This document shows, one piece after another, positions 9,110-22,081 of a DNA stretch of 32,632 nt. Source of the stretch: Muribaculaceae bacterium (GTDB taxonomy: Bacteria; Bacteroidota; Bacteroidia; Bacteroidales; Muribaculaceae). Numbering within the stretch: the stretch's first letter is position 1; every line of letters starts with the position of its first letter. Both the position numbers and the translations under genes were made by a program. The notes under the pieces were generated by a model. That model made no database searches. It was not told the DNA's origin and saw nothing but the letters and a program-made list of their open reading frames with translations. The stretch is from contig JAGBIJ010000034.1 of NCBI GenBank assembly GCA_017935045.1, positions 1 through 32,632 of the forward strand, in the 5' to 3' direction.

Positions 9110-10156
9110 ATGACAGACATACGTTTAACGCTCAAAGCGGAATGGGAGCCGCAGTCAGAAATATTGCTCGTCTGGCCTGACCGGCATACTGACTGGGAAT
9201 ATATGCTGGACGAGGTGCGGAAGTGCGTCGCCGCTATACTTGAGGCGCTCCGCCGCCATGGCTCGAAAATCAGTCTGCTTGTGCGCGATCCCGCCGAGCC
9301 GCTGGAATATCTTTCCGAAGATGTGCTGCAGGGGCTTACGTTGGTAAAGACCGAATACAACGATACGTGGATACGCGATTACGGGCCTTTGAGCCTGACA
9401 CTCGAGGGCGCGGGCGACAAGCGCGCTCTGCTCGCGGATTTCGGTTTTAACGGCTGGGGGCTGAAGTTTGCCTCTGACCTCGACAATCTCGTCACTTACA
9501 GATGCTTTTCACATCATTCGGACGGCAGTCTCAATCCCGCATATCTCAACTGCCGCGGCTACGAACTGGAAGGAGGCTCCGTCGAGACCGACGGTCGCGG
9601 CACACTGCTTACTACGTCGCGTTGCCTGTGTTCGCCCAACCGCAACGGAGGCCTGAGTAAAGATCAGGTGGAACGCCGTCTCGCCCGGCTGCTTGGCATA
9701 CGTCACTTCCTGTGGCTTGACCACGGCTATCTGGCCGGAGACGACACCGACAGCCATATAGACACTCTGGCTCGCCTCTGTCCCGGAGACGTAATAATCT
9801 ATACTGCCTGCCATGACAATGAAGATGAGCATTACAGCGAGCTGCAAGCTATGGCCACGCAACTGAAAGAAATGCGTACGCCCGAAGGCAAACCGTACTC
9901 TCTGGTGGAACTGCCGCTTCCTTCCCCCTTCTATGATCCGGATGACGGCCATCGTCTTCCCGCCACGTATGCCAATTATCTCGTTACGGACAACGCCATA
10001 CTTGTCCCGGTCTATGGCCGTCCTGAAGAGGACCGCATGGCCTTGGACATCATCCGCAGCGTGTATTCAGACAGAGAGGTAGAAGGCATTGACTGCCGCG
10101 CGCTTATCCGGCAGCATGGCTCGCTCCATTGCGCCACCATGCAGCTCAACAGGTAG
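9110..10156 (+). CDS. aguA: Agmatine deiminase (peptidylarginine-deiminase family)
   Basis: This 348-residue cytoplasmic enzyme converts agmatine to N-carbamoylputrescine and ammonia. Family motifs visible are WEPQSEILLVWP near the N-terminus, DTWIRDYGP (about 84-92), ELEGGSVETDGRGT, and DHGYLAGDDTDSHIDTLAR with the catalytic His/Asp residues. The nucleophile is C341 in GSLHCATMQ, close to the C-terminus. The length and motif order match AguA/PPAD-type deiminases. There is no signal peptide, which argues against a secreted protein-citrullinating enzyme and for a metabolic one. The next gene catalyses the following step, which strengthens the call. Confidence 0.93.
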   Translation: MTDIRLTLKAEWEPQSEILLVWPDRHTDWEYMLDEVRKCVAAILEALRRHGSKISLLVRDPAEPLEYLSEDVLQGLTLVKTEYNDTWIRDYGPLSLTLEGAGDKRALLADFGFNGWGLKFASDLDNLVTYRCFSHHSDGSLNPAYLNCRGYELEGGSVETDGRGTLLTTSRCLCSPNRNGGLSKDQVERRLARLLGIRHFLWLDHGYLAGDDTDSHIDTLARLCPGDVIIYTACHDNEDEHYSELQAMATQLKEMRTPEGKPYSLVELPLPSPFYDPDDGHRLPATYANYLVTDNAILVPVYGRPEEDRMALDIIRSVYSDREVEGIDCRALIRQHGSLHCATMQLNR

Positions 10157-10200
10157 ACTACATATCCCATAAGTATAGCAGCCGATAATCCACTAATGAA

Positions 10201-11109
10201 ATGAAAATGAAGAAGACAAATATATTGACAGGCGTAGTCCAGAATCATTACGTAGCTGACGCGCAATACAATAGATCGAAGAATCTGTGTCAGGTCGAGC
10301 AGCTCGCCAATTCGGGCGCAGATCTTATCGTTCTGTCTGAACTGCACGACAGTCTGTATTTCTGCCAGACTGAAAATGTGGCCAATTTTGATTTGGCCCA
10401 CGAGGTCAACGAGGACAACGAGTCCATAGCCGAGTATGCGAGGCTTGCCCGGTTTCTGCATGTAGTAATCATTACCTCGTTTTTTGAGAAACGCGCTCCC
10501 GGCCTGTACCACAATACAGCAGTCGTTATAGATTCCGACGGCACCATAGCCGGAAAATACCGCAAGATGCACATACCCGACGACCCGGCGTATTATGAAA
10601 AATTTTATTTTGCCCCCGGCGATCTGGGCTTTACTCCCGTCGACACCTCTCTGGGCCGGTTGGGTGTATGTGTATGTTGGGACCAATGGTATCCTGAGGC
10701 GGCCCGCATCATGGCTCTGCAGGGCGCCGACATGCTGATTTATCCTACGGCTATAGGGTGGGAGAGTACTGATCCCCTCGACGAAAAGAAGCGTCAGCGT
10801 GACGCGTGGATTACCATACAGCGGGCTCACGCCGTAGCCAACGGTCTGCCTGTCATCGTAGCCAATCGCGTAGGCTACGAGCCCGATCCGAGCGGTGCGA
10901 CCAACGGTATCACGTTCTGGGGAAGCAGCTTCGTAGCCGGCCCGCAGGGAGAGATACTTGCCCAGCTGTCTGACAACACCGAGGATACCATTCTGACATC
11001 GGTCGATATGAACCGCTGCGAGCAGGTACGCCGTTGGTGGCCCTTCCTGCGCGACCGCCGCATCGACGCTTATAAACCGATACTACAAAGATATATTGAC
11101 AATAAATGA
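10201..11109 (+). CDS. aguB: N-carbamoylputrescine amidohydrolase
   Basis: This 302-residue member of the nitrilase superfamily hydrolyses N-carbamoylputrescine to putrescine, CO2 and ammonia. The catalytic triad is E47 (LSELHDS), K122 (YRKMHIPDD) and C159 (CVCWDQWYPEAAR), with the family-specific signature WDQWYPEAAR. It lies 44 bases after aguA, so agmatine would be processed fully by this pair; the arginine decarboxylase that makes agmatine is not in the window. Translation starts at the ATG at 10201. The stop codon overlaps the start of the ABC-F gene (ATGA). Confidence 0.94.
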   Translation: MKMKKTNILTGVVQNHYVADAQYNRSKNLCQVEQLANSGADLIVLSELHDSLYFCQTENVANFDLAHEVNEDNESIAEYARLARFLHVVIITSFFEKRAPGLYHNTAVVIDSDGTIAGKYRKMHIPDDPAYYEKFYFAPGDLGFTPVDTSLGRLGVCVCWDQWYPEAARIMALQGADMLIYPTAIGWESTDPLDEKKRQRDAWITIQRAHAVANGLPVIVANRVGYEPDPSGATNGITFWGSSFVAGPQGEILAQLSDNTEDTILTSVDMNRCEQVRRWWPFLRDRRIDAYKPILQRYIDNK

Positions 11110-15111: not shown

Positions 15112-15684
15112 ATGGTTCACAATACAGACAACATACAGACAGACCGGAATCTTACGGCTACGCAGTTTGACACGATTCATGCCTTGTGTCTGGACATATA
15201 TACCAAGAAACTGAATGACTACGGCACATCATGGCGCCTTATGCGTCTGCCGTCGCTCACGGATCAGATTCTTATCAAGGCTCGCCGCATACGTACCCTG
15301 GAGGAGACAGGAGAGGCACGTATCCAGGAGGGAATAGCTCCGGAATTCATAGGCATAATCAATTACGGAGTGATGGCGCTGATACAGTATGCTCTCGGTC
15401 CCGGAGAAGATCTGGACCCGCAGGAGGCGCTCAGTCTCTATAATCGAGAGTTCGGACGCGCCACGTCGCTTATGACAGACAAAAACCATGACTACGACGA
15501 GGTCTGGCGCGAGATGCGCGTCAGCAGTTTTACCGATATTATTCTGACCAAGCTCCGTCGTATCAAGCAGATAGAAGACCATGACGGTAAAACTCTGATT
15601 TCAGAGGGTGTGGACGCAGGATATATGGATATCGTCAACTACGCGGTCTTCGCACTGATAAAACTGGGGTATGCCGATGAGTGA
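15112..15684 (+). CDS. DUF1599 (nucleotide-modification-associated) protein, internally duplicated
   Basis: This 190-residue soluble protein is made of two related halves. The first (about 16-100) has YTKKLNDYGTSWRLMR...LTDQILIKARRIRTLEE...EFIGIINYGVMALIQ. The second (about 120-187) has LMTDKNHDYDEVWREMR...FTDIILTKLRRIKQIED...YMDIVNYAVFALIK. Repeated DYG/DYD, KARRI/KLRRI and IINYG/IVNYA motifs mark DUF1599, an all-helical fold grouped with nucleotide-modification domains. The function is unproven. In Bacteroides this gene precedes a DoxX gene, as here, and the two reading frames overlap by up to 14 bases. Confidence 0.88.
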   Translation: MVHNTDNIQTDRNLTATQFDTIHALCLDIYTKKLNDYGTSWRLMRLPSLTDQILIKARRIRTLEETGEARIQEGIAPEFIGIINYGVMALIQYALGPGEDLDPQEALSLYNREFGRATSLMTDKNHDYDEVWREMRVSSFTDIILTKLRRIKQIEDHDGKTLISEGVDAGYMDIVNYAVFALIKLGYADE

Positions 15685-18142
15685 GACTGCGGAAAACATA
15701 TCATCTGATGTCGGGACTATAGTCGCCGGAGAGCCTCACAGCGCCTGGTGGGTGCGTGTACTGACGTGGCTGTGTCGCCTGTGTGTAGGCGGTGTATTCA
15801 TCTATTCCGGCTTTGTCAAGGGGGTGGATCCATGGGGTGCCATTTACAAAATGGACGATTACCTGAGTGTGATGCCCGATGCTCTTTCGAATCTGTTTTC
15901 GCCACTGCTGACAGTCGGTGTATTCGCGCTTTTCGGCTTTGAATTTATCATAGGCGTGTTCCTTGTCACAGGCTCCTACAGGCGTCTCGCACCTCTGGGA
16001 GCCGGACTGCTGATGCTCGTCATGCTTCCTCTCACGCTATGGATAGCCCTGACTGATCCTGTGGCTGATTGCGGCTGCTTCGGCGACGCCCTTATCCTCT
16101 CCAACTGGGCCACGTTCTGGAAAAACGTGGTCATAACAGTAATGGTGGCATGGCTGCTGCGCCGCAACAACCGCTGCCGCTGTCTGGTCCATCCTACGCT
16201 GCAGTGGCTTCTGTTCGCAGCATCGCTGACCTTCATCATGGCCATCGGATTCATAGGCTACTCGTATCAGCCTGTCATAGATTATCGCCCTTATCCGGTA
16301 GGAGGCGGACTGACGGATTCCGCTGCCGAGGAGACTCCGATAATGGCTGTATGGGAAAAAGACGGCAAGCGCATTACCATTCCCGCCGACAGCATACCTG
16401 AAGACGAGGGATGGATTTTCATCGACAGGGTGGCGCAGCCGGCCGCAGCCGGCCAGGCAAAGAAGAAAACCAAGGGACTTGCCATTTTTGACGAGGCGGA
16501 GGAGATTACCGAAGACGTCCTGCTGACCGAAGGAGAGCAGGTAGTGGTTTTTATGACTGATCTGCCGTCGGTAAGCAGCGGCGCTTTCTACAAGCTCAAC
16601 TCTCTTTATTCCTATTGCAAGCAGCAGGATGTAGATATGATTGCCGTCGTGGCGGCCACTCCGATACAGATTGAGGATTTCATCTCGATGTCGCTTGCCG
16701 AATATCCGGTATATACGGCTGAAGATACGGCTATCAAGGAAGTGGTGCGCGGTAATCCCGCGGTCGTTTATCTTGAAGATGGGAAAATCATCTGGAAGAG
16801 CTCGCTGCAGTCCATCCCTACCGATGATTTCCTGCAGGGTACGCCTGCCAAACCGCGTGGCTTGCGCATATATCAGCGCGACAGCCGTCAGTGGCTCGAT
16901 TCATTGTCGGCAGGTATGCTGGGTGTGGTCTGTCTGTTGATTTTATTGAGCCATGTGCCTCTGGTCATACGCGCCACCTTGCGTCGCCGCTCCCGCTCGC
17001 GTTACGGCAAGTATATCAAGGACGGGTCAGTGGTCAAGGCGCTGGCAGCCGTAGCGCTCGCCGGCAGCATGACATCATGTCACAAAGATGAACCGGAGCC
17101 GCAGCCGGTTTCCGGCGAGAATGCCGTATTGATATACATGGTGGCCACTAATAATCTCAACCGCAATGCCGACGCCGATCTGCAAGAGATGCTTGATGGA
17201 TATGAAGCGGCCGCTCGGCGGAACACAGATTTTTATGTCTATATAGCCCATCCTGATTTCGACAGTCCGGAACTAAGACAGTTGGTAATGGACGGAGGCA
17301 AGCCGCAGTTTGTTACCCTGAAGTCCTATCCCCGCACCGTGTCGTCAGTGGCTCCGTCGCGCATATCGGAGGTAATAGATGATTTCCGTGGCATCGCCCG
17401 TGCGCCGCATAACGGCATGATTTTCTGGAGCCACGCTACGGCCTGGTTACCCGGAAGCGGACTGCCGGCGCCTCCGATGCGCTCTTATGGAGATGATTAC
17501 GGCAGGCGTATCGGTATTCCTGATCTGGCGGCCGCGCTGCCTGACGGTTTCTTTGATTTTATATGGATGGATTGTTGCTTTATGGGCAACATAGAGACTG
17601 TCTATGAGCTGCGCGACAAATGCAGCGAATACGTCGCCTCGCCTACCGAGGTACTGGCCAAGGGAGCGCCATATCAGATTTTGGTCAGAGACTTTTGTGA
17701 GCTTGGATTTGACCTGTGCGCCGTGGGTCGCAACGTGTTCGATTCTTTCCTTCTGCCGGGCGCCACTCCATATTATACGGTAGCCATTACCGATACCGGC
17801 TCTCTTGACGATGTCGCGGCCCAGGCGAGAGCGATCGCCTTTGCCGGCAATATGTCGACTGTCGGCCTGCAGTCATACGGCTCTTTAGGCCTCGTGCGGT
17901 TTTATGATTTCGGTCAGAGTTATCTCCGCATGGCTCAGGAGCAAGGAATCTTGTCCGCTGGCTTTGAAGAAGCATTGAACAGTGCCGTGACATACAAGGC
18001 TGCGACTGACCGCTTCATCAATATCACTATCAATCAGTCGGATTACAGCGGACTAAGTTGCTCGCTGCCGTCAATGTTGACCGGCGCCGATCTCGACGAA
18101 TACAGGCGTCTGCAGTGGTGGCAGGACGTATATATGCAATAA
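15671..18142 (+). CDS. DoxX membrane domain + thioredoxin-like domain + C11 clostripain-type peptidase fusion
   Basis: This is a single 823-residue frame. Residues about 28-178 hold the DoxX-type membrane region (four to five helices) with the DCGCFGD motif of the redox-linked DoxX/MauE group. Residues about 255-400 look like a thioredoxin-like fold without CxxC (EQVVVFMTDLPSVSS...NPAVVYLEDGKIIWKS). A further helix lies at 412-433, followed by the basic stretch RRRSRSRYGKYIK and a second hydrophobic segment ending at C470 (LAGSMTSC-HKDEPEP), which reads exactly like a lipoprotein signal peptide. Residues 480-820 form a clostripain-like C11 cysteine peptidase with H588 (WSHATAW) and C636 in MDCCFMG. 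No stop, in-frame ATG in a usual position or frameshift separates the two halves. The start may instead be the ATG at 15677. Confidence 0.82.
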   Translation: MPMSETAENISSDVGTIVAGEPHSAWWVRVLTWLCRLCVGGVFIYSGFVKGVDPWGAIYKMDDYLSVMPDALSNLFSPLLTVGVFALFGFEFIIGVFLVTGSYRRLAPLGAGLLMLVMLPLTLWIALTDPVADCGCFGDALILSNWATFWKNVVITVMVAWLLRRNNRCRCLVHPTLQWLLFAASLTFIMAIGFIGYSYQPVIDYRPYPVGGGLTDSAAEETPIMAVWEKDGKRITIPADSIPEDEGWIFIDRVAQPAAAGQAKKKTKGLAIFDEAEEITEDVLLTEGEQVVVFMTDLPSVSSGAFYKLNSLYSYCKQQDVDMIAVVAATPIQIEDFISMSLAEYPVYTAEDTAIKEVVRGNPAVVYLEDGKIIWKSSLQSIPTDDFLQGTPAKPRGLRIYQRDSRQWLDSLSAGMLGVVCLLILLSHVPLVIRATLRRRSRSRYGKYIKDGSVVKALAAVALAGSMTSCHKDEPEPQPVSGENAVLIYMVATNNLNRNADADLQEMLDGYEAAARRNTDFYVYIAHPDFDSPELRQLVMDGGKPQFVTLKSYPRTVSSVAPSRISEVIDDFRGIARAPHNGMIFWSHATAWLPGSGLPAPPMRSYGDDYGRRIGIPDLAAALPDGFFDFIWMDCCFMGNIETVYELRDKCSEYVASPTEVLAKGAPYQILVRDFCELGFDLCAVGRNVFDSFLLPGATPYYTVAITDTGSLDDVAAQARAIAFAGNMSTVGLQSYGSLGLVRFYDFGQSYLRMAQEQGILSAGFEEALNSAVTYKAATDRFINITINQSDYSGLSCSLPSMLTGADLDEYRRLQWWQDVYMQ

Positions 18143-18173: not shown

Positions 18174-19514
18174 ATGAAAACTAAATTTTGTCTTCCTATC
18201 GCTTTCGCTCTTGCCCTCGCTGCGCCTGTCGCCAAGGGGGAGCAGGCTGTTTACACACCTACGGCTGAAATACTCAAGGCTCGCGAGGATTTCCGCGACA
18301 AAGGATTCGGTATTTTTATCCATTGGGGCATATACTCCATGCTCGGCAGCGGCGAATGGGTTCTCAATGACCCGGACATTTACCACAACGAGTACAAGGA
18401 CCTGGCACGCGGCTTATATCCGTCGCAGTTTGATGCCGACAGCTGGGTAAAGGCCATCAAAGACAGCGGCGCGAAATATATATGTATCACTACGCGCCAT
18501 CACGATGGCTTCTCGATGTTCGACAGCAAGCACACGGATTACGACATCGTAGACGCTACACCTTTCAAGCGTGATATAATCAAGGAGATAGCCGATGCAT
18601 GCGGCCGCCACGGCATTGCCCTGCATTTCTACTACAGTCAGCTTGACTGGGGCAGAAGCGACTACAATCCTATAGGCCGCACCGGCCATGAACCAGGCCG
18701 CGATACGAGCGGCGACTGGAATGAGTACACGGCTTTCATGCGCGACCAGCTTACCGAACTGCTTACCAATTATGGCCCGGTCGGAGCTATATGGTACGAC
18801 GGCATGTGGGATCGTGACGAGCTGCCAGGCGGTATGAGTCCCGAGCTGTGGGATCTGGACCGCCAGTATGCCCTGATACATAGCCTCCAGCCTGCCTGTC
18901 TTGTAGGCAGCAATCATCACACCACACCTTTTCAGGGCGAGGACATACAGATATTCGAGCGCGATAAGCCCGGTGAGAACGAGGCCGGCCTCTCCGGTCA
19001 GGAGATAAGCAAGCTGCCGCTGGAGACCTGTCAGACCATGAACACCTCGTGGGGTTACCGCATACGCGATAACAAATATGCTTCTGTCAACGAGTTGATA
19101 CAGTATCTTGTAGGCACCGCCGGACGCGATGCCAACCTTCTGCTCAATATCGGTCCCCGTCCCGACGGCACATTGCCTCCGCAGGCCTTGGAACGCCTCG
19201 CCGGCATAGGGGAGTGGATGAAGGAATACGCCCCTACGGTACAAGGCGTGCGGGGCGGTCCGGTAGGCCCTCATGACTGGGGCGTGACTACTAAAAAGGG
19301 GAATAAAATGTATCTGCACGTACTCGATGGTAAGGACGCTGCGATATTTGTGCCTTTTGCCGGAGCGCGTCTGAAGAAAGCGGTTGACTACAAGACCCGT
19401 AAGCCTGTACGCTTCCATCTGACCTCCGAGGGAGCCGTAGTCACGTTGCCGGCGGACAGAGACAAGGGGGCGCCCGACTATGTGGTGGAACTTGAATATG
19501 ACAAAACTATCTGA
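18174..19514 (+). CDS. GH29 alpha-L-fucosidase, exported
   Basis: This 446-residue protein has a signal peptide at about 1-22 (MKTKFCLPIAFALALAAPVAKG). The GH29 barrel shows GIFIHWGIYS, ITTRHHDGFSMFDS, ALHFYYSQLDWG, and the nucleophile D209 in IWYDGMWD. It also shows TMNTSWGYR and LLLNIGPRPDG, all standard for retaining fucosidases. It would release alpha-linked L-fucose from glycans, for example mucin or milk oligosaccharides, probably in the periplasm. The length is at the short end of the family, and no carbohydrate-binding module is present. The gene starts 31 bases after the C11 fusion and overlaps the next gene by one base. Confidence 0.93.
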   Translation: MKTKFCLPIAFALALAAPVAKGEQAVYTPTAEILKAREDFRDKGFGIFIHWGIYSMLGSGEWVLNDPDIYHNEYKDLARGLYPSQFDADSWVKAIKDSGAKYICITTRHHDGFSMFDSKHTDYDIVDATPFKRDIIKEIADACGRHGIALHFYYSQLDWGRSDYNPIGRTGHEPGRDTSGDWNEYTAFMRDQLTELLTNYGPVGAIWYDGMWDRDELPGGMSPELWDLDRQYALIHSLQPACLVGSNHHTTPFQGEDIQIFERDKPGENEAGLSGQEISKLPLETCQTMNTSWGYRIRDNKYASVNELIQYLVGTAGRDANLLLNIGPRPDGTLPPQALERLAGIGEWMKEYAPTVQGVRGGPVGPHDWGVTTKKGNKMYLHVLDGKDAAIFVPFAGARLKKAVDYKTRKPVRFHLTSEGAVVTLPADRDKGAPDYVVELEYDKTI

Positions 19515-22081
19515 TGAATCCTGCAATGAAAAAGATATTTTACGCGGTGGCGGCAGCTTTGACATGCTTTGCCGCTCCTTCCCATATACAGGCCGATGAA
19601 CCTGAGACCCGTATTCTCGGTCTTGCGGGTCGTGTCTACGACCTGCCTGTGGCCGAGGCCGATGCTATGGAATTTCTGTATCGGTATATGCCATTGAGCG
19701 ACAGGCTGATGTACACTCCGGAGTTTTACCTGCGCAACGTCCGGACGTCGCTGCTCGCACGTCGGGAGATGCCCTGGGGTAAGACTGTGCCTGATGATTT
19801 ATGGCGTCATTTTGTGCTTCCCGTCAGAGGAAACAACGAGTATCTCGATGATTTCCGATCTCACTATTATCCTGAGCTGAAGGAGCGTGTCAAAGATATG
19901 AGTATGTATGACGCCGCTCTTGAAATAAACCATTGGTTGCATGAAAAGGTAACTTACAAACCATCGGACAGCCGTACTTCTGCTCCGGAAGCCTCGATTC
20001 GCACGGCTACGGGACGATGCGGCGAGGAGTCGGTGCTGGGCGTGGCTGCGTTCCGTGCGGTAGGTATTCCGGCCCGTCAGGTCTATACTCCGCGCTGGGC
20101 GCATACCGACGACAATCATGCCTGGGTCGAGGTATGGGTGGACGGCAAGTGGTATTTCCTGGGCGCATGTGAGCCGGAGCCGGAGCTTAACCGCGCATGG
20201 TTCAACGCCCCGGTCTCGCGCGGCATGCTGATGCACACACGTGTGTTCGGCGATTACAAGGGCCCTGAGCAGATTATGAGCGTCAACGGCGGAATTACGG
20301 AAATCAACGTCACTGACAATTATGTGCCTGTGCGCGAGTCACGCGTCACGGTTGTCAGCGCCGCCGGGCGCCCTATGGCCGGTGTGAAAGTGTACTATAA
20401 GATTTACAATTACGCCGAGTTTTATACTGCCGGCACGCGCGTTACCGACGCTTCCGGCACTGCCATGCTGCTCACGGGGCAAGGCGACATGCTCGCCTGG
20501 GCCAGTGACGGCAAGTATTTCGGATTTGCCAAGGTCGATTCGCCTCAGACACGCCTGGTGCTTGACCATAAGATAGGAGATGTCTTTGAGACTGACATTG
20601 ACATTGTGCCGCCGGTCGAAAATCCCATCCCTTCCCATGCTACGGAAAGTCAGATAGCCGACAATGCCCGCCGCTTTGAAGCGGAGAACCGCGTTCGCGG
20701 CGTATATGAGGCCACATTTTTCGGTGGCAGATTCTGCGGGTTAGACAAGTCGGCGGTAATCTCTGCATTTGGAGAAAAGCAGGGAGAGCGCGTGGCAGAC
20801 ATACTGCTAAAAGCCAAAGGGAATTGGCAGAACATATATGATTTCCTTTCCGGTGTGGAACCGGAGCGCATGGACGAAGCGATAGGTATGCTTGAGGTTG
20901 TCTCCGAAAAAGATTTGCGCGACACTCCGCGCTATATCTTCTCAGCCACACTCGCCGCTACCGAGCCTCAGCCCGACAATGACCTGTATGTGGAATATGT
21001 ACTCAATCCGCGAGTAGCCAACGAACTTCTGACAGATTATCGGCGCTCCATGCGTCAGGCCGGTAAAACCAAGCCCATGACTGCGGAAGAAATCTTCGAT
21101 TATACGAAGAAGAATATCAGCATTGACCAGAAGGCCAATGCTTACCGTGTGCCGGTCGCTCCGCTTAATGTATGGAAAGCCGGTGTGGCCGATGCACATT
21201 CGCGTGACATCTTTTTTGTAGCGGCATGCCGCAACAACGGTATACCGGCACGCCTGGATCCGGTCAGCGGGCTGTGTCAGTACTATGCCGGCGGACAGTG
21301 GATGACGGTTAATTTCCAGAGCGGAAAGAGCGAAATCAGGCCGACCGGCACACTTGCAGCGGTCTATACGGCTTCTGAGTATCTGCCTGATCCCGAATAC
21401 TATAGGCATTTTACTATTTCTGAAATCTGTGAAGGTGAGCCGCGTGTCATAGAATTTGGCGATGATCTGGGCGAGAGTTATACCTCGCTGCTTGAGCGTG
21501 GCACTGAATTGCCGCAGGGATACTATATGCTGACTACCGGCGTTCGTCAGGCCAACGGCTCTGTCAGCGCACGCCTGAGTTTCTTCAATGTGGAGAAAGA
21601 CAAGAGACTCACTGTGCCGCTTATTCTGAACCACAAGCCTGAGGCAATCGAGGTAATCGGCTCCATCGACCCGGAGATGCTCTATCAGCCTGCCGGAGCG
21701 GATGCTGCGGCTTCGATTCTCTCTACTACCGGACGCGGATACTTCATAATCGGTGTTCTCGGAGACACCGACGAGCCGTCGAATCATGCCGTGACAGACC
21801 TGGCTTCGATAGCATCCACACTCAATAAATGGGGGCGCCCCATAGTCTTGTTGAGCAGAGACCGCGATGAACTGAAAGAATTGAGCAATCTGCATTATGG
21901 CAAGGACATAGAAGGCCGTGTCCGTGCCATGCTTGAGACCGGTGTGAAGAGCGGCAGCGGTACAGAGCGGCGTCTGCCGGTAATTATGGTGGCAGACAGC
22001 TTTGGCAGGGTGGTGTTTGTCAGCGAAGGCTATGACACGTCTCTGGGGCAGAAACTGACAAATTTACTGCCGCAGCTCTGA
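19514..22081 (+). CDS. Exported transglutaminase-like protein with a second, degenerate transglutaminase domain
   Basis: This 855-residue protein has a signal peptide (residues 5-27 if the ATG at 19526 is used). The first transglutaminase-like domain has C169 (TGRCGEESVLG), H202 (DDNHAWVEVW) and, in the place of the usual third residue, the acidic GACEPEPE around E220. A beta-sandwich-like region follows. A second copy at about 520-610 keeps RNNGIPARLDPVSG and GGQWMTVNF, but has DAHSRD in place of the Cys motif (H562, S563) and no catalytic His, so it should be inactive. Residues about 715-855 resemble a thioredoxin-like fold (GYFIIGVLGDTDEPSNHA...LPVIMVADSFGRVVFVSEG). Such Bacteroidetes proteins are thought to be peptidases or amidases of peptide substrates. 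It shares a one-base overlap with the fucosidase gene. Confidence 0.85.
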   Translation: MNPAMKKIFYAVAAALTCFAAPSHIQADEPETRILGLAGRVYDLPVAEADAMEFLYRYMPLSDRLMYTPEFYLRNVRTSLLARREMPWGKTVPDDLWRHFVLPVRGNNEYLDDFRSHYYPELKERVKDMSMYDAALEINHWLHEKVTYKPSDSRTSAPEASIRTATGRCGEESVLGVAAFRAVGIPARQVYTPRWAHTDDNHAWVEVWVDGKWYFLGACEPEPELNRAWFNAPVSRGMLMHTRVFGDYKGPEQIMSVNGGITEINVTDNYVPVRESRVTVVSAAGRPMAGVKVYYKIYNYAEFYTAGTRVTDASGTAMLLTGQGDMLAWASDGKYFGFAKVDSPQTRLVLDHKIGDVFETDIDIVPPVENPIPSHATESQIADNARRFEAENRVRGVYEATFFGGRFCGLDKSAVISAFGEKQGERVADILLKAKGNWQNIYDFLSGVEPERMDEAIGMLEVVSEKDLRDTPRYIFSATLAATEPQPDNDLYVEYVLNPRVANELLTDYRRSMRQAGKTKPMTAEEIFDYTKKNISIDQKANAYRVPVAPLNVWKAGVADAHSRDIFFVAACRNNGIPARLDPVSGLCQYYAGGQWMTVNFQSGKSEIRPTGTLAAVYTASEYLPDPEYYRHFTISEICEGEPRVIEFGDDLGESYTSLLERGTELPQGYYMLTTGVRQANGSVSARLSFFNVEKDKRLTVPLILNHKPEAIEVIGSIDPEMLYQPAGADAAASILSTTGRGYFIIGVLGDTDEPSNHAVTDLASIASTLNKWGRPIVLLSRDRDELKELSNLHYGKDIEGRVRAMLETGVKSGSGTERRLPVIMVADSFGRVVFVSEGYDTSLGQKLTNLLPQL

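Follow-up and report, generated by a model that had tools for sequence, protein, structure and literature searches.

In the window, by which we mean the whole stretch of 32,632 nucleotides analysed here, one open reading frame joins a MauE/DoxX-like membrane protein to a peptidase of the C11 (clostripain) family and is flanked by genes that recur at related loci:

15112..15684, + strand: DUF1599 gene (Pfam PF07659, 197.9 bits; tblastn neighbours)
15671..18142, + strand: MauE/DoxX-like (BT_3928 family)–C11 peptidase fusion, 823 aa, the same frame being open in five genomes
18174..19514, + strand: alpha-L-fucosidase (PF01120), downstream in four of the five fusion loci and there placed between the fusion and the next gene
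19514..22081, + strand: transglutaminase-like protein (PF01841), downstream in all five fusion loci

The single frame of 823 residues, together with His588, Cys636 and Cys470, is exactly as a sequence-only reading of this DNA had described it. In Pfam the C-terminal half matches Peptidase_C11 (PF03415; 101.8 bits against a cut-off of 25.8, residues 488-723), and the DoxX-type label that had been given to the N-terminal half stands at the level of MauE (PF07291; 53.5 bits against 27.0, residues 30-163) and of the NCBIfam BT_3928 family (NF045576; 308.7 bits against 250, residues 31-383), but not for DoxX itself, with PF07681 at 23.0 bits just below its cut-off of 23.6. No Rfam match was found in the whole window at gathering scores.

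The DUF1599 gene lies upstream of the membrane-protein gene in all five fusion loci and in the six unfused loci examined. In the window its frame shares 14 bases (15671-15684) with the start of the fusion, and this overlap, which holds a second ATG at 15677, suggests coupled translation. In G028 the transglutaminase-like neighbour is present as two partial pieces. Genes for a PAD_porph protein and a carbon-nitrogen hydrolase are located at window positions 9110-11109, while the same pair adjoins DUF1599 and the membrane-protein gene in four of the six unfused loci (G083, G084, G017 and G067), pointing to an older gene order.

Distribution and phylogeny of the fusion

Full-length fusions with no internal stop occur in five of the 111 genus genomes searched, namely the window's own (G000) and G018, G028, G070 and G097, the latter four being 46-50% identical to the window. 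The assembly that contains the window is a draft with 62 contigs and 89.91% completeness, of the kind in which two genes could be joined by an assembly or sequencing error; yet the in-frame fusion recurs in four further genomes at this level of identity and with common neighbours, so that such an origin is hardly conceivable. The fusion is genuine and no assembly slip. The sequence-only reading had proposed a search for the same fusion elsewhere and had regarded homologues always encoded as two genes as speaking against it, which does not hold, because four relatives encode the fusion. Among the membrane-protein matches listed for the other genus genomes, none lies in a frame longer than 534 aa. 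Among the best matches listed in a family-wide search (297 genomes, E <= 1e-60) the fusions were the same five, and the window was the sole fusion in an order-wide search (393 genomes, E <= 1e-85), where in both cases distant fusions could be missed because of the thresholds. Among 80 related loci, one (L096, compare contig C42 of G018) matches residues 28-821, and the matches of the remaining 79 stop at or before residue 489.

Trees were built from 50 membrane-protein rows and from 30 C11 rows, and in both of them the five fusions form one clade with a support of 100/99, for which one fusion event would be the simplest account. The nearest unfused kin are G083 and G084 in the membrane-half tree, with weak support (81/71), and G084 in the C11-half tree (100/98, midpoint root). 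The C11 gene and the membrane-protein gene of G084 are found on different contigs, and no C11 was seen in G083, which is 81% complete. Stops that looked like a split fusion in G083 and G084 were traced to the alignment overrunning the end of the DoxX-type gene, after which a different gene comes next. Within the clade, branch lengths added up by hand reach ~2.4 changes per site in the membrane half and ~4.2 in the C11 half. The placement of the window row differs between the trees, since it groups with G028 and G097 (100/97) in one and with G018 and G070 (90/73) in the other. An alignment that combined fused rows with membrane-only and C11-only ones was excluded from the results, as its C11 half looked unreliable.

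Membrane half and predicted topology

The following features were assigned to the N-terminal part of the fusion:

15755..16195, + strand: four-helix MauE/DoxX-like domain, residues 29-175 (PF07291; hydropathy)
16070..16078, + strand: Cys-Gly-Cys of the motif DCGCFGD, residues 134-136, predicted periplasmic
16199..16255, + strand: fifth membrane helix, residues 177-195 (hydropathy)
16526..16825, + strand: middle soluble domain, residues 286-385, forming the last part of the region matched by the BT_3928 family; weakly thioredoxin-like, without CXXC
16904..16969, + strand: sixth membrane helix, residues 412-433 in the sequence-only reading, with its hydropathy peak at 415-433 (hydropathy, alignment)
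16970..17023, + strand: basic loop, residues 434-451, predicted cytoplasmic; eight Lys and Arg, length and sequence varying among the fusions

The profile match to the BT_3928 family and the upstream DUF1599 gene are common to fused and unfused loci. The unfused relatives, however, stop soon after helix six, whereas the fusion continues into a whole lipoprotein-type precursor. Hydropathy gives helices at residues 30-48, 81-99, 109-127, 141-159, 177-195 and 415-433, plus the seam stretch at 452-470; one more hydrophobic segment, at 324-342, falls within the middle domain and is taken for a buried element. The loops predicted to lie inside carry Lys+Arg against Asp+Glu in the numbers 2/0 (loop 2), 4/0 (loop 4) and 8/1 (seam loop), and the outside loops are net acidic. 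Thus the arrangement proposed in the sequence-only reading, with the middle domain out, the basic loop in and the peptidase out, is consistent with hydropathy and loop charges, while the N-tail, which is predicted inside but is acidic against the rule (one Lys or Arg, four Asp or Glu), goes against it. With this topology the CGC motif, the middle domain and the C11 peptidase would all be placed on the outer side of the inner membrane.

Another in-frame fusion, of a membrane protein of this type, was encountered in G214, a genome from another genus of the same family (contig C64; L167:2097-4169, - strand), and was considered as an independent fusion, but its partner is a triose-phosphate isomerase (691 residues in total; PF00121, 314 bits). 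It comes from one draft genome and may be a sequencing slip; in G038 (L172) the genes for the MauE/DoxX-like protein and for triose-phosphate isomerase are separate neighbours. Because triose-phosphate isomerase is a cytoplasmic enzyme, the G214 frame, for what a single draft genome can say, fits a cytoplasmic end of helix six.

The thioredoxin-like label of the middle domain is a weak one: the similarity to ResA is sub-threshold (E 0.093), no Pfam domain was found over the middle region, and none of the 50 family rows has a CXXC motif in the middle domain. The only CXXC in these 50 rows is that of the window, in TM1 (residues 35-38). The two cysteines of the CGC motif are present in 50/50 rows, fused or unfused; as a trait of the family, the pair therefore says nothing about the protease. 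Hence, while the sequence-only reading holds for the fusion, and its lipoprotein signal and topology are consistent with the data, its idea that the protease is coupled to a redox sensor is weak and finds no support.

The seam and the processing of the fused chain

Between helix six and the peptidase lies the seam, in which the following elements can be distinguished:

17024..17080, + strand: internal lipoprotein-type signal, residues 452-470, with hydrophobic core and lipobox M-T-S-C470 (seam alignment, conservation)
17030..17032, + strand: in-frame GTG, residue 454, a possible unconserved internal start; no other start-type codon lies strictly between -33 and -3 relative to Cys470
17078..17080, + strand: Cys470, predicted acylation site, directly preceded by the predicted cleavage site of signal peptidase II; invariant in 24/24 aligned fused and standalone C11 rows
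17081..17092, + strand: His-Lys-Asp-Glu after Cys470

As had been noted from the sequence, the seam resembles a lipoprotein signal, in that a hydrophobic run leads into a lipobox ending in Cys470 and acidic residues follow. All five fusions have [MLF]-T-[SA]-C after the hydrophobic core, and in all five this signal is internal (in the window at residue 470 of 823), unlike N-terminal lipoprotein signals. To our knowledge, known lipoprotein signals are N-terminal, and because they are described as such, annotation would not seek one 450 residues into a protein with several helices. When the seam is divided into the loop (434-456) and the h-region (457-466), together 33 columns of which 21 are gap-free, and the lipobox of four columns, no column of the former is invariant among the five fusions, but two of the latter are, Thr468 (-2) and Cys470 (+1). 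The chance of both invariant columns falling within the lipobox is 0.009 for 37 columns and 0.02 for the 25 gap-free ones, figures of limited power, as the regions were picked post hoc and the five sequences come from one clade. The Thr and Cys codons of the lipobox vary synonymously among the fusions and, therefore, it is the residues that are under selection.

Standalone C11 peptidases of the genus have the same arrangement at their beginning: a hydrophobic stretch with a lipobox-type Cys near the N-terminus was present in 25/25 loci read, which are the best-scoring of other genus members and include two near copies (L159 and L165). Fused and standalone proteins thus have in common the family, the His-Cys dyad, the S1 Asp, the lipobox-type Cys and the acidic residues, whereas the signal is N-terminal in the latter and internal in the fusion. 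An alignment of the five fusions with 19 of these 25 loci (the six left out also have the lipobox Cys) contains 31 invariant columns, among them Cys470, His588, Asp634 and Cys636. Between one and three acidic residues are found at +2 to +6 in each of the five fusions and in all 19 standalone rows, with only one in G018. At -3 the window and G018 have Met and G070 has Phe; these three fall outside the [LV] that PMC8048626 gives for this lipobox position, but the standalone relatives are equally loose. For surface lipoprotein export, PMC5080379 reports a signal C-X-K-(D/E)2 and an S-D-rich form for B. fragilis. The window (C-H-K-D-E) fits the former and G028 (C-S-D-D-D) resembles the latter, while G018, G070 and G097 are acidic with a looser fit. 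A survey covered 887 distinct ORFs with a length of 150 aa or more, from a set biased towards DoxX and C11 loci. Beyond residue 60 it showed 16 lipobox-like sites that have a hydrophobic stretch, and an acidic residue at +2 to +6 was present in only six of them. These are the five fusions and L108, which has its Cys at residue 61 and is probably a genuine lipoprotein whose start is annotated too early.

The sequence-only reading had set a polyprotein releasing an acylated protease beside a protease that stays tethered. The former is favoured, because the lipobox and the acidic residues are kept while the remaining seam drifts, and the fusion is probably a two-product polyprotein cut by signal peptidase II; a chain of about 91 kDa would then yield products of about 52 and 39 kDa, the latter being the peptidase. 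The N-terminal part would insert into the inner membrane as six helices with its N-terminus inside, so that the CGC motif and the middle domain face the periplasm. The basic loop after helix six would stay in the cytoplasm, where hydropathy and charge place it and in keeping with the G214 frame, and because of this location could provide the positive n-region of a lipoprotein signal. The hydrophobic stretch that follows would cross outward and bring Cys470 to the outer leaflet, where Lgt would acylate it and signal peptidase II (LspA) would cut before it. Both enzymes are encoded in each of the seven genomes searched. The membrane half would remain and retain the former signal helix as an additional one at its C-terminus, and the C11 peptidase would be set free as a lipoprotein whose first residues are acidic as in export signals, its probable destination being the cell surface, on which the lipidated protease is perhaps exposed.

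If the chain is not cut, the seam helix would serve as a mere membrane anchor and the periplasmic protease would stay joined to the membrane protein. A signal in an internal position might indeed be read as a plain helix, known lipoprotein signals being N-terminal, and the presence of Met or Phe at -3 in the window, G018 and G070 would agree with this; a plain anchor, however, needs no Cys, no Thr-[Ser/Ala] and no acidic residues, yet the seam keeps these, which makes the uncut form quite improbable. The protease could also be made as an ordinary N-terminal lipoprotein if ribosomes also or mainly began translation in the seam, so that the fused frame is a by-product. Start-type codons at a workable distance from the Cys are present in all five fusions: GTG at -16 in the window, GTG at -16 and ATG at -12 in G028, ATG at -17 and -13 in G097, ATG at -30 and -21 in G018 and ATG at -27 in G070. 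Neither the position nor the codon is conserved, however, the window and G028 having GTG about where G097 has ATG. In G070 the ATG at -27 is the only such codon between -38 and -10 and encodes the Met of the membrane-protein motif H-I-P-M, which is found in the unfused G083 and G084 as well (H-V-P-M). Furthermore, although the loop contains indels, all five fusions keep the reading frame open from one half to the other, for which internal starts give no need, and we consider this route unlikely.

Both halves of the putative two-product polyprotein are known families, and the separation of polyproteins at an internal signal is known in principle. FbcH of Bradyrhizobium japonicum is a cytochrome b/c1 polyprotein that signal peptidase I cleaves at an internal signal. 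It likewise holds a bacterial membrane protein and an exported protein in one chain, which are separated at an internal signal, but FbcH involves signal peptidase I and a respiratory complex, whereas the window fusion, if read correctly, would combine unrelated partners and rely on signal peptidase II and a lipid anchor. The open-licence literature searched gave no example of a polyprotein with an internal lipobox or of an internal signal cleaved by signal peptidase II. The locus may well represent a chromosomal polyprotein that has been kept through long divergence in the genus, uses LspA as its processing enzyme and sends its products to different membranes, namely a redox-type protein to the inner membrane and a protease to the outer surface. 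If the chain is cut, Lgt and signal peptidase II would be able to act on a signal that lies within a polytopic chain, the fusion would offer a natural system for testing this, and cutting would be one way to keep a gene fusion without joining the products.

The C11 peptidase half

The peptidase domain comprises the following elements:

17120..18139, + strand: C11 (clostripain family) peptidase, residues 484-823 (PF03415; PDB 6mzo)
17432..17434, + strand: catalytic His588, invariant in 24/24 rows and aligned with the His of 6mzo
17570..17578, + strand: Asp634 (S1 pocket) to catalytic Cys636, both invariant in 24/24 rows and aligned with the DAC of 4yec

PDB 6mzo, which is named an inactive zymogen C11 protease, aligns with residues 479-822 (E 4.4e-36). 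The family, the His-Cys dyad and the S1 Asp are common to the fusion and the structures 6mzo, 3uws/4yec (which we take to be PmC11) and 5dyn (presumably fragipain). Asp634 and Cys636 have their counterparts in Asp177 and Cys179 in the PmC11 numbering of PMC4850288. One Lys or Arg is present in the loop after the catalytic His in two of the five fusions and none in the other three, nor in 5/19 standalone rows, so that self-cleavage at a Lys as in PmC11 cannot be assumed, and activation of the fusion protease may differ from that of PmC11. The observation on the post-His loop refers to window positions 17432-17491 and to L048, L031 and L032.

The fused copy is the sole C11 found in each of the five fusion draft genomes. 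If the protease keeps the job of its unfused relatives, a lipid anchor would therefore be needed. C11 stretches also occur in tandem within one open frame, with two Pfam stretches each, at L171:6149-8524 (- strand; G005), a frame of 792 aa, and at L163:1456-3717 (+ strand; G109), one of 754-756 aa.
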